Source: Microbacterium stercoris (GTDB lineage: Bacteria > Actinomycetota > Actinomycetes > Actinomycetales > Microbacteriaceae). Taken from it: a DNA stretch of 64,000 bases. Where the stretch lies: the NCBI RefSeq assembly GCF_017592545.1, contig NZ_JAGFOA010000005.1:186001-250000 (forward strand), given 5' to 3'. The position numbers were made by a program, and so were the translations under genes. Below, one piece after another: positions 27,292 to 30,912 of the stretch (positions are counted from its first letter, which is position 1; the number at the start of each line of letters is the position of its first letter). Under the pieces are notes generated by a model. The model saw nothing but the letters and a program-made list of their open reading frames with translations. It did not search any database and was not told where the DNA came from.

Positions 27292-27295
<4 letters not shown>

Positions 27296-27990
27296 GCGGC
27301 ACGGCGAACGAGGGCAAGGCGCTCGAGGTTCAGCTGGACGGCGAGCGTGTGCAGCGCATCCCGCTGCGCACGCGCGTCGTCATGCCGGACGACTCTCTCG
27401 ACGAGGTCATCACGACCTATGCGAAGGATGCCGTCCAGCCGGGTGATCTGCTGTTCGTGACCGAGAAGATCGTCGCGATCACGCAGGGACGCTCGTACCT
27501 GCTCACCGACATCCGGGTGCGTCCGCTCGCACGCTTCCTCTCCAAGTACGTCGTCAAGACGCCGTACGGCATCGGTCTCGGCATGCCCGAGACGATGGAG
27601 ATGGCGCTGCGTGAGTGCGGCACCCCGCGCATCCTCTTCGCGGCCGCGGTGGCCGCCGTCACGAAGGCCTTCGGGCGTCGCGGCGACTTCTACCGCATCG
27701 CCGGCGACAAGGCCCGCGCGATCGACGGTCCGACGTCCGGCACGATCCCGCCGTACAACAAGGCCGTGGTGCTCGGCCCCGAGAAGCCGCGCGAGGTGGC
27801 CCGCCACCTGCAGCAGCTGCTCGGGGGTGGCGTTGATGTCGCAGTCGTCGACATCAACGACATCGGCGGCAACATCCTCGGATCCACGCTCGACAAGGCG
27901 GGGGAGAAGCGCCTCGTGCGCATCCTCAGCGACAATCCGCTCGGCCAGGGACACCAGTCCACGCCACTCGGCATCGTCCGCCCTGCGTAA
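27292..27990 (+). CDS. Coenzyme F420-0:L-glutamate ligase-like protein
   Basis: 232 residues of the CofE/FbiB ligase-like superfamily: [62 protein letters not shown] and [16 protein letters not shown]. True CofE adds glutamate to F420-0; no other F420 gene is in the window, so the substrate may differ. The GTG at 27292 overlaps the sigA stop, so it is made with the principal sigma factor. A very strong terminator follows. Confidence 0.75.
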
Positions 27991-28124: not shown

Positions 28125-29147
28125 TCAGAACCCGATCGCCTTCTGATAGCGGGGCTTGTGACCGGTGCGGATGCCCGTGACGCTCGGCTTGTTCTCGTAG
28201 ACGCCCGCGCCCCAGTTGCCCTCGACGAGCACGGGGCCCTCGGGAGTGACGACGACGTCCCAGCCGACGTACGGCACCTCGGGCACAACGCGCGCGGCTT
28301 CCTTGATGAAAGCGATCACCTCGTCCATAAAGGGCAGCTGGAACTCGGCGATCGGGAAGCCGGTGTCGGGGTGCTTCTGGTGCACGTGGCCGTGCGAGTC
28401 ATAGCCGTCGCCGAATGCGCGGCCGTCGTCGTGCAGCATCGTGTAGAAGCCGCCGTACGACATCTGGTCGCTGACCGCCCCGCGACCGAACTTCTGGGCG
28501 ATCGCGAGGATGTGCACGTCCGTCCCGTCGTTGAACGCCGTGATGCGCGTGGTGTTGACGGTGCCAGGGCAGACCGCGGCGAGGTCATCGTGCTGGCGGA
28601 TGACCTCCTCGAGCAGCAGCTCGTCGCGCTCGAGCAGTCCGCGGTGGAACGCGTCCCAGTCGCCGACATCCGACGCGTGGTATCGGCGCACGCCGAGGCC
28701 CATGTGGCTGACGGGCACCTTCGCGATGAACGTGCCGTGCTTCTCGGCGAAGGCCTTCACCGCGTCCGCGTTGTTCTTGTCGACAATGAGCCACTCCCGC
28801 TTGAGGAAGCGGTCGAACAGCTTGTTGAACTCGATCTTGTTCTCGAACAGCACCCTCTTGTCGAGCTGCGCGGTCTGCTTGGCGATGCGGATCGAGACGG
28901 GGTGGGTCATGAAGGTGGCGCGCTCGGCCTTGGAGAGGATAGCGAAGTCGTAGTCGACGTAGTCCTGGAAGGCGACATCGTTGCGAGCGGCCGACCACAG
29001 CATGTCCGCGAGCACCTTCGGTGTCCAGCTGCCGTGCTGCTCGTGCACCTCCTTCGCGCGCTCCACCACCGACTTCACGTCGATGTTTCGGGCACGCTCC
29101 GCGAGGTAGCGGAACTTGCCGGCGAGGCCGAGTCGGTTGTCAGACAA
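28125..29147 (-). CDS. ATP-grasp protein of the sugar-transfer-associated type
   Basis: 340 residues. The ATP-grasp part runs from about residue 85 to the end: KREWLIVDKNNADAVKAFAEK, the FIAKVPVSHMGLGVRRY lysine/glycine loop, LLLEEVIRQHDDL, and the metal-binding end YVGWDVVVTPEGPVLVEGNW. This fits the ATP-grasp family found near sugar-transfer and capsule genes, although no such genes are here. The likely reaction is ATP-dependent ligation of a carboxylate; the substrate is unknown. It starts with TTG at 29147; no ATG or GTG is available in frame nearby and GGAG lies six bases upstream. Confidence 0.75.
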   Translation of the reverse strand: MSDNRLGLAGKFRYLAERARNIDVKSVVERAKEVHEQHGSWTPKVLADMLWSAARNDVAFQDYVDYDFAILSKAERATFMTHPVSIRIAKQTAQLDKRVLFENKIEFNKLFDRFLKREWLIVDKNNADAVKAFAEKHGTFIAKVPVSHMGLGVRRYHASDVGDWDAFHRGLLERDELLLEEVIRQHDDLAAVCPGTVNTTRITAFNDGTDVHILAIAQKFGRGAVSDQMSYGGFYTMLHDDGRAFGDGYDSHGHVHQKHPDTGFPIAEFQLPFMDEVIAFIKEAARVVPEVPYVGWDVVVTPEGPVLVEGNWGAGVYENKPSVTGIRTGHKPRYQKAIGF

Positions 29148-29200: not shown

Positions 29201-29884
29201 ATGACCTGGCCGAACCCCCGGCGAGCCGCCCCGCTGGCCCGCATCTCACGCTCGGCCCTTCGCTCCAACGCCCGTCTTCTCGCGGCCGATCCGGGCGCTG
29301 TCGCCGATCTGCGACGCGACGCGTGGGGCCATGGCGTCGGCGTGGCGGCCGAGGCTGTCGCAGCCGAGGGCATCCGCTACGCCAACGCGGATCGGCGAGA
29401 CGCTGCGGTGGTGCAGGCGGCCGGCCTCGAAGCGGTCGAAGCAGACCCCGTCGGCGGCGAGCTGCTTTACGGTCTCCCGGGATCGGGGGGCACACCGGTG
29501 CTCTCGCTCGCGGCGCCCGTGCTGTCGACGAAGCCCCTGCTGGCGGGAGAGGGAGTCTCGTATGGGTACACCCATCGCGCCACCTCGGACACGCGGCTGG
29601 CGCTCATCGCGGGCGGATACGCGGAGGGCGTTGTGCGCGCCCTCGGCAACAACGCCGGTGTCGAGCTCTCGGGCGCCGTGCGGCCCATCGTGGGTCGTGT
29701 GGCCATGGACGTCTGTGTCATCGACATCGCGGATGCCGCGGTCGACGCCGGCGACACCGCGGTGTACTTCGGATCCGGTCTCGTGCGCGACGCCCTTGCC
29801 GACTGGTCGCGGATCACGGGGCTCACCCCGGCCGAGCTCGTCTGCGCCGTCGGGCTCCACGTCGAGCGGGAGGTGGTCGCGTGA
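29201..29884 (+). CDS. Alanine racemase-like protein with intact C-terminal domain and collapsed barrel (subunit A)
   Basis: 227 residues against the usual 360-390. The start of the barrel is recognisable (ARISRSALRSNARLLA, then LRRDAWGHG), but the PLP lysine of the AVVKADAYGHG motif is Arg38. About 150 residues of the barrel are missing. The C-terminal beta domain is complete: GELLYGLPG, GEGVSYGYTH with the catalytic tyrosine (Tyr121), LALIAGGYAEGVVRALG and PIVGRVAMD. In alanine racemases this tyrosine acts across the dimer on the partner's active site. The gene overlaps the next, which has the complementary parts. A canonical enzyme elsewhere cannot be excluded. Confidence 0.8.
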   Translation: MTWPNPRRAAPLARISRSALRSNARLLAADPGAVADLRRDAWGHGVGVAAEAVAAEGIRYANADRRDAAVVQAAGLEAVEADPVGGELLYGLPGSGGTPVLSLAAPVLSTKPLLAGEGVSYGYTHRATSDTRLALIAGGYAEGVVRALGNNAGVELSGAVRPIVGRVAMDVCVIDIADAAVDAGDTAVYFGSGLVRDALADWSRITGLTPAELVCAVGLHVEREVVA

Positions 29885-30912
29885 CGGCTCAGCTGCGCAT
29901 CTCTCGCGCGCGTCTCGCACAGAACATCGCCTCGGTGCGGGCGCGCGTCGCGCCCGCCGAGGTCATGGTGGTCGTGAAGGACGATGCGTATAGACACGGC
30001 GTCGAGACCGTGGCGAGTGTCGTCCGCGAAGCGGGTGTGTCGTGGCTCGGTGCGATTGATCTGCGGAGCGCCCTTCGCGCGAAGGCCGCGGTCGGCGACG
30101 CGGCACGCGTCTTCTGCTGGCTGACGCTCGGCACTGACGAGACGCACAAAGCCCTCACGGGAGGCCTCGAACTCGGCGTGGGGGATGCCGCATACCTCGA
30201 GCGCATCGCCGACGCGGCGGCGGGCACCGCCGTCGTGCACCTGAAGATCGACACGGGACTGCATCGCAACGGCGTGCGTCCCGAGCAGTGGCCGGCATTC
30301 GTCGGCCGCGCCGCGGAGCTCGAACGCGCCGGGCGCATTCGCGTCGCGGGAATCTGGAGCCACATCTCCGAGGCGAGCGACGAGGACGACGACGTCGCCC
30401 GCGCGGCGTTCGATGTGGCGGTCGAGGTCGCCCGTGAGGCGGGCCTCGCCCCCGAAGTGCGCCACCTGGCCGCCAGCGCGGCAGGGTGGGCGCGCGAGGA
30501 GTTCCGCTACGACCTGGTGCGTTTCGGTGCCTTTGTGTACGGCGTGCGATCTGCGGACGGTCCCGTGCTACCCGGCATCGTCCCCGTCGCGACTCTCGTC
30601 GCGCCTGTCGTGGCGGTGCGCGGCGACGAGGTGGAAATCGGGATCGGATCCCTTGACGGGCTCCCGTCCTCTCTCGCAGGCGTCGCTGATGTCGGCACGC
30701 CCGGCGGCAGCCGGGCCCTGCTGCGTGTCGCCCTGGGATCCAGCGTCGTGGCCGCCTGGCCGGGGGCTGCGGTCGGCGACGAGGTCGCGGTGTGGGGCGA
30801 CGGAGCGCGCGGCGAGTCGTCCTCCACGACGCTCGCGGAGGCGATCGGGACGGTCGGCGAGGAGCCGCTCCTGCGTCTGTCGCCGCTCATCCCTCGCGTC
30901 GTCGTCGACTGA
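29881..30912 (+). CDS. Alanine racemase-like protein with intact PLP barrel and degenerate C-terminal domain (subunit B)
   Basis: 343 residues. The PLP barrel is complete: VMVVVKDDAYRHG with the PLP lysine (Lys33), HLKIDTGLHRNG (Lys122, the usual carbamylated position, and the Arg), GIWSHISEASDEDD (His161), RHLAASAAGW and YDLVRFGAFVYG (Arg214). The C-terminal domain has lost the segment with the catalytic tyrosine: no VSYG motif is found, GYADG has become GSLDG, and the MDQ motif is ALG. Alone it should lack one of the two catalytic bases. The GTG overlaps the stop of the upstream gene (GTGA), consistent with 1:1 synthesis of a heterodimer. Confidence 0.85.
   Translation: MTAQLRISRARLAQNIASVRARVAPAEVMVVVKDDAYRHGVETVASVVREAGVSWLGAIDLRSALRAKAAVGDAARVFCWLTLGTDETHKALTGGLELGVGDAAYLERIADAAAGTAVVHLKIDTGLHRNGVRPEQWPAFVGRAAELERAGRIRVAGIWSHISEASDEDDDVARAAFDVAVEVAREAGLAPEVRHLAASAAGWAREEFRYDLVRFGAFVYGVRSADGPVLPGIVPVATLVAPVVAVRGDEVEIGIGSLDGLPSSLAGVADVGTPGGSRALLRVALGSSVVAAWPGAAVGDEVAVWGDGARGESSSTTLAEAIGTVGEEPLLRLSPLIPRVVVD

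Follow-up and report, generated by a model that had tools for sequence, protein, structure and literature searches.

The papers on the solved alanine racemases (Alr) assign Lys39, Tyr43, Ser204, Arg219 and Tyr354 to the PLP-binding monomer and Tyr265, Tyr284 and Arg290 to the partner monomer, the lysine and the catalytic tyrosine belonging to different subunits (PMC3485190, PMC3245724). Tyr354 also holds the PLP phosphate (PMC3245724), and for AlrTt it is described that the substrate side chain points at the equivalent residue, where Asp or Glu lowered alanine racemisation (PMC4517790). In Lyr and Bar, relatives of Alr with larger basic substrates, this tyrosine is replaced by Thr (Lyr) or Ala (Bar), and both enzymes are described as relying on an Asn beside the Arg (PMC3485190). 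A heterodimeric or split alanine racemase was not found in the literature searched, subscription journals lying mostly outside it.

In the window, the stretch of 64,000 nucleotides of Microbacterium stercoris that was analyzed, two overlapping genes (A and B, Table 1) quite probably encode a heterodimeric racemase with one composite site. Comparison of related loci revealed the partition of the catalytic residues, the co-occurrence of the genes, selection on both of them and intermediate stages; from this we infer that A and B associate physically and catalyze a reaction. Together they would form a PLP-dependent fold-type III racemase which works only as a heterodimer, each A-B pair holding a single active site. 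B would bind PLP on Lys33 and supply the cis residues Tyr37, Lys122, Arg129, His161 and Arg214, while A would contribute Tyr121 as the second acid/base and Arg146 and Met169 as other trans residues. Such an enzyme would have originated from a homodimeric racemase that was duplicated in tandem and whose copies then underwent complementary losses, in which B was deprived of the tyrosine loop and A of the lysine and then of the barrel.

Gene pair A-B and the partition of catalytic residues

The features that the earlier note had named were found in sequence and alignment, i.e. Tyr121, Arg38 and the Met-Asp motif in the 227-residue frame of A, Lys33, Lys122, His161, Arg214 and the change of GYADG to GSLDG in B, and the overlap of the genes by the four bases GTGA. 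It had missed two acids of B that are absent from alanine racemases, Glu327, which aligns with Tyr354, and Glu164, which aligns with His166+3. In domain searches, A matched only Ala_racemase_C (PF00842, 99 bits) and not PF01168, B matched Ala_racemase_N (PF01168, 150.6 bits) and reached 23 bits, below the cut-off, for Ala_racemase_C. The TIGR00492 scores of 86.6 (A) and 123.8 bits (B) were both lower than the curated cut-off of 168. The nearest named B is that of Microbacterium paludicola (77% identical). A canonical full-length alr, which the alternative set out in the earlier note had foreseen, is located elsewhere in the same genome (G000:C3:146302-147369). It is adjoined by a TsaE P-loop motif, as are all 17 other canonical alr loci checked. 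The assembly itself holds the A-B region twice with identical protein B (G000:C1:687226-688637 and G000:C5:215498-216909), probably owing to an assembly duplication; its listed contamination is 7.14%.

Table 1. Features of the A-B locus, numbered from the first nucleotide of the window.
Feature	Position	Strand	Basis and remarks
CofE-like gene (F420_ligase family)	27292..27990	+	PF01996, 39.8 bits; takes the place of the MurT/GatD-like pair of other genera
Sugar-transfer-associated ATP-grasp gene	28125..29147	-	PF14397, 107.7 bits; shares with the CofE-like gene the place of the MurT/GatD-like genes; membership in the system uncertain
Gene A	29201..29884	+	227 aa, ATG start; C-terminal racemase domain and a short piece left over from the first strands of the barrel
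A residues 36-45, DLRRDAWGHG, left from the strand of the PLP lysine, which is replaced by Arg38	29306..29335	+	Conserved motif
A Tyr121 (catalytic Tyr265')	29561..29563	+	Sequence/alignment
A Met169 (Met312')	29705..29707	+	Alignment
Overlap GTGA, start of B and stop of A	29881..29884	+	Sequence
Gene B	29881..30912	+	343 aa, GTG start; full PLP barrel and C-terminal domain without the tyrosine loop
B Lys33 (PLP Lys39)	29977..29979	+	Alignment
B Glu164 (His166+3)	30370..30372	+	Alignment
B Glu327 (position 354)	30859..30861	+	Alignment

For the comparison, a search with B as query was performed in 299 Microbacteriaceae genomes, all of which matched since canonical alr also matches. Besides the window's own match, the 80 best places were fetched; along with six Microbacterium loci and the window they gave 87 loci, which comprised 76 split pairs, four intact tandems and seven single canonical alr genes. 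The split pairs are those of the window, of the six Microbacterium loci and 69 from the 299 family genomes, and seven more were added later. As one A gene is cut by a contig end (L127), 75 complete pairs remained for the counts.

Within these 75 pairs, A retained Tyr265, Met312 and Arg290 in every case, Arg309 in 73, Tyr284 in 70 (Phe in five) and Asp313 in 63 (Asn in 12), and never Lys39. B showed the counterpart: Lys39, Tyr43, Lys129, Arg136, His166 and Arg219 were each present in 75/75 sequences and the Tyr265 loop was deleted in all of them. None of the complete pairs, including that of the window, possesses both catalytic residues on one chain, which the four intact tandems and seven intact racemases termed alr2 (see below) do. 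The earlier note had regarded non-conservation of the two residue sets among orthologues as fatal to its proposal; instead, the reciprocal sets were kept throughout. The 137 C-domain sites common to A and B were also ranked one by one by their entropy difference. Met312, Arg290 and Tyr284 were among the top six sites that are conserved in A and vary freely in B, while positions 354 and 355 were among the top eleven in the opposite direction. Since position 354 is a cis residue located in the C-domain, this ranking is what the solved structures predict. The remnant strand motif DLRxDAYGHG is conserved in the 53 barrel-less A proteins that have a remnant, 41 of them with Arg at the lysine site.

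Structure prediction made use of a natural A-B fusion (L084). Because MAFFT aligned the A sequences with the B part of the fusion whenever B sequences stayed there, even after lengthening of A by read-through, L084 was folded by AlphaFold2 separately with A rows (two fusions and 70 A) and with B rows (two fusions and 59 B). The models had pLDDT values of 83.1 and 86.7 and low pTM values of 0.57 and 0.64, respectively, without confident docking of A and B in either. The B half aligned to the alanine racemase 5fag over 355 residues (Z 44.5, rmsd 1.7).

Distribution, selection and evolutionary stages

Split pairs occur in 25 of the 78 Microbacteriaceae genera sampled. A profile of A separates the pair-type A, which matches over the whole profile, from canonical alr, which matches over the C-domain only. 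At E <= 3e-63 it detected 64 of the 299 genomes, an undercount as several pairs read in sequence score lower. Each of the 64 has a B gene next to A, as seen from coordinates in 57 genomes and from reading the loci in seven; among the latter, the pattern had missed the lysine motif of B in a fusion (G212), and B is cut by a contig end in G282. Independent occurrence of the two genes, named by the earlier note as evidence against a heterodimer, was thus not encountered for any of these A genes. In Microbacterium, 73 of 119 genomes contain A at E <= 1e-61, which is a rough lower bound and includes a match over the C-domain only (G557); another genome scored as pair-less (G543) has an A gene beside MurT. 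A search of the order (248 genomes, 85 genera) gave A-profile matches at E <= 1e-58 in nine genomes, all of the window's own genus, though this cut-off would miss diverged split racemases.

A and B are both under purifying selection; in 18 comparisons, dN/dS ranged from 0.12 to 0.52 for A and from 0.08 to 0.43 for B. Several stages of the split are preserved. Four loci (L108, L114, L115 and L124, belonging to the genera g5 and g29) are intact tandems of two full-length copies, each of which keeps Lys39 and Tyr265. Thirteen of the 75 A proteins are full-length without Lys39, 53 are barrel-less with a remnant of the first strand and nine consist of little beyond the C-domain. In the full-length A proteins, barrel residues disappear while Tyr, Arg and Met stay. 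Finally, A and B are naturally fused in open frames of 729 (L084), 766 (L090) and 832 residues (L270, G212).

These data bear on two readings in which A and B would not share a site. The first, close to the alternative of the earlier note with its non-racemase role, takes both proteins for decayed paralogues whose role is not catalytic, such as PLP sensing or regulation. It is true that neither chain is complete and that an overlap of two genes can be maintained for regulatory reasons. However, the catalytic residues are the best kept sites, they are kept reciprocally and add up to those of one complete site, full-length A loses its barrel residues and retains Tyr, Arg and Met, and the same split in another genus (g72, see below) affects the only alr found there. 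We consider this reading disfavoured and very unlikely. The second assumes that B, alone or as a homodimer, catalyzes another PLP reaction that needs no tyrosine, and that A is an accessory protein kept beside it. Fold-type III barrels serve other reactions, the barrel of B is complete, and the fit of the L084 B half to 5fag is compatible with an autonomous B. On the other hand, the most constrained sites of A are the trans catalytic ones, A-B fusions exist and A adjoins B in 64/64 genomes, all of which makes an independent B hardly credible.

A grouped with the intact A copies in a single clade of the C-domain tree (0.914). The barrel tree united B, the intact B copies and seven intact alr2 in one clade (0.989), with alr2 nested inside B (0.911). 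This nesting of intact enzymes with an acid at position 354 counts against a single loss of the tyrosine, which would have been lost repeatedly unless alr2 is a rebuilt gene; a support of 0.38 in the C-domain tree is too weak to choose between these histories.

The alr2 genes stand in tandem with alr and encode racemases that are intact, of full length and marked by Asp at position 354 and the motif SHLADAS (L169:206-1342 on the minus strand, L173-L177 and L197). They were read at seven loci, in the genera g8, g11, g24, g32, g37 and g66 and in genome G301 of g72. Their products are probably related to B, homodimeric and altered in substrate. The idea that pair-less genomes in general carry such an intact acid-354 homodimer instead was dropped; it holds for some of them only, and of 53 genomes selected as pair-less, 36 have a single racemase match.

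Gene neighbourhood and putative substrate

Among the 79 relatives, a sigma-70 gene is found near the pair in 71, a DUF7455 gene in 72, a gyrB/parE-like gene in 72 and an ATP-grasp gene (PF14397) in 26. Group-B cross-bridges start at the D-Glu of the stem peptide. Of the 80 loci, 40 have a MurT-like ligase alone, 31 (the window included) a CofE-like protein alone, one has both and eight have neither; four of these eight are the intact tandems, which lie at other sites. The two ligases exclude each other in 79/80 loci (Fisher p 1.3e-13, uncorrected for kinship). The MurT-like ligase is composed of MurT_C and Mur_ligase_M domains and is accompanied by a GatD-like protein in 41/41 MurT loci (e.g. 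L066, L080, L091, L095). For S. aureus GatD, C94 is reported to be essential (PMC5871853). At this nucleophile site the GatD-like proteins have Gly (28), Ala (7), Thr (4) or Ser (1), and Cys in none of the 40 aligned, one sequence being unaligned. This suggests that the sigma-70-linked MurT/GatD-like proteins are a ligase which no longer uses glutamine ammonia.

A dead GatD is not a mark of the pair, as had been considered. Six genomes (G009, G019, G022, G046, G048 and G058) harbor sigma-70, MurT, GatD-like, DUF7455 and gyrB genes together, the pair was not found there, and these loci look like the empty site of A-B. Their sigma-70-linked GatD is also devoid of Cys, indicating that the dead GatD is wider in distribution than the pair. 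Four GatD proteins with Cys (G003, G014, G021 and G055) have no sigma-70 gene within the fetched flanks.

As to the substrate, position 354 is Glu in 47 and Asp in 28 of the 75 B proteins versus Tyr in 24 and Trp in one of 25 canonical enzymes, and His166+3 is Glu in 56 and Asp in 19 versus Asn in 19 and Gly in six. Two acids in place of Tyr and of Asn or Gly near the substrate entry of B suggest a basic substrate. With a chance of about one half, our best guess for this basic amino acid is the D-diamino acid in the wall of group B, D-ornithine or a similar one, a proposal based on two residues and the gene context. Counting against the composite racemase is that B has an acid where Tyr354 holds the PLP phosphate. 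Asn at position 137, beside Arg136, occurs in 60/80 sequences and is shared with canonical alr, and Lys129 is kept in B. According to a Microbacterium study, the diamino acid of the wall is, depending on the strain, D-ornithine, L-lysine or diaminobutyrate, and M. oxydans is placed in the D-ornithine cluster V (PMC10757982). M. oxydans strain BEL163 carries the pair (L014). With MurE as a proxy of the wall type, the substrate motif was the same in 15 pair-bearing and 15 pair-less Microbacterium genomes, groups that are impure (G543) and in which one genome gave no MurE match (G536) and another a MurE in two pieces (G539).

The earlier note had proposed an obligate heterodimeric alanine racemase. 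The one-site heterodimer gained support from the partition, the co-occurrence, selection, the intermediates, the fusions and the split in g72, whereas alanine is unlikely as the substrate of the window pair. It might still be argued that the heterodimer is a second alanine racemase beside the canonical alr, given its family membership and the split enzyme of g72, which retains Tyr354 and looks like an alanine enzyme. However, acids at position 354 and His166+3 were present in 75/75 B and 0/25 canonical proteins, the effect of Asp or Glu at the equivalent position of AlrTt was a decrease of alanine racemisation (PMC4517790), and the genome already has a canonical alr. This alternative is therefore deemed improbable, and a heterodimer with another, presumably basic, substrate is preferred.

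Split alr of genus g72 and comparison with known systems

In seven of eight g72 genomes, the alr at the glmS-alr-tsaE site is itself split into two genes, B2 and A2; all seven loci were read (L149-L151, L260-L263). In B2, Lys39, Arg136, His166, Arg219 and Tyr354 are preserved and the tyrosine loop is missing; in A2, Tyr265, Arg290, Met312 and Asp313 are preserved, the barrel is missing and position 354 is Gly. The gene order, B2 followed by A2, is the reverse of that of A-B. Purifying selection acts on both genes, whose dN/dS was 0.11-0.26 in four comparisons. A query with canonical alr recovered only the two split pairs in these seven genomes and no unsplit alr. The eighth genome (G301, L169; 96% complete, 260 contigs) has a tandem of intact alr and alr2 at the same site and no other match. 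The barrel of B2 grouped with the alr copies (0.95) and the C-domain of A2 with alr2 (0.864), while the C-domain tree placed B2 weakly (0.481) next to B. The first two groupings point to a tandem like that of G301 as the precursor and suggest that the split in g72 is independent of the A-B split. Since D-alanine is needed for the cell wall, the split site has to be functional in these seven genomes, provided that they have no racemase of another fold. This genus is the strongest support for the composite site; if g72 makes D-alanine with B2-A2, such a site must work.

Taken together, a tentative reading, which we hold to be possible rather than probable, is that racemase homodimers of the Microbacteriaceae were split reciprocally at least twice. 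A-B, in the sigma-70/gyrB region, would make a D-diamino acid of the group-B wall beside a MurT/GatD-like ligase with a dead glutaminase, which would join the amino acid, rather than ammonia, to the D-Glu of the stem peptide (or beside its CofE-like replacement), and B2-A2 would be the only alanine racemase of g72.

A duplicated homomer whose copies degenerate in a complementary way is a textbook origin of obligate heteromers, though to our knowledge a complete series is rare. Here, a single bacterial family displays intact tandems, partners with a dead barrel, barrel-less partners, bare domains and fused chains, plus an apparent second case that concerns the essential alanine racemase. For Alr as a drug target, a heterodimeric form would alter the encounter with D-cycloserine and other inhibitors. 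If the substrate of A-B is a D-diamino acid of the wall, the genes of the locus become candidates for those of the group-B cross-bridge, of which none were found in the literature searched.

Compared with the MurT/GatD lipid II amidotransferase, the neighbour of the pair in other genera likewise combines a MurT-like ligase with a GatD-like partner, but this partner lacks the nucleophile cysteine (40/40 aligned) and is not located beside the window pair. The LCB1 and LCB2 subunits of serine palmitoyltransferase resemble A-B in being paralogous with the PLP lysine on one of them only, yet they are eukaryotic, belong to fold type I and are not known to show a reciprocal split of a lysine and tyrosine site. 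With Lyr and Bar, the pair has in common the replacement of the tyrosine at position 354; those enzymes, however, are homodimers of complete chains with Thr or Ala there, whereas B has Glu or Asp and keeps Lys129 in 75/75 sequences. With Alr itself, the fold type III homodimer of TIGR00492, A and B together share the fold, the domains, the PLP lysine, the trans tyrosine and most active-site residues, while each chain has half a site, scores below the family cut-off, and the pair bears an acid instead of tyrosine at position 354.
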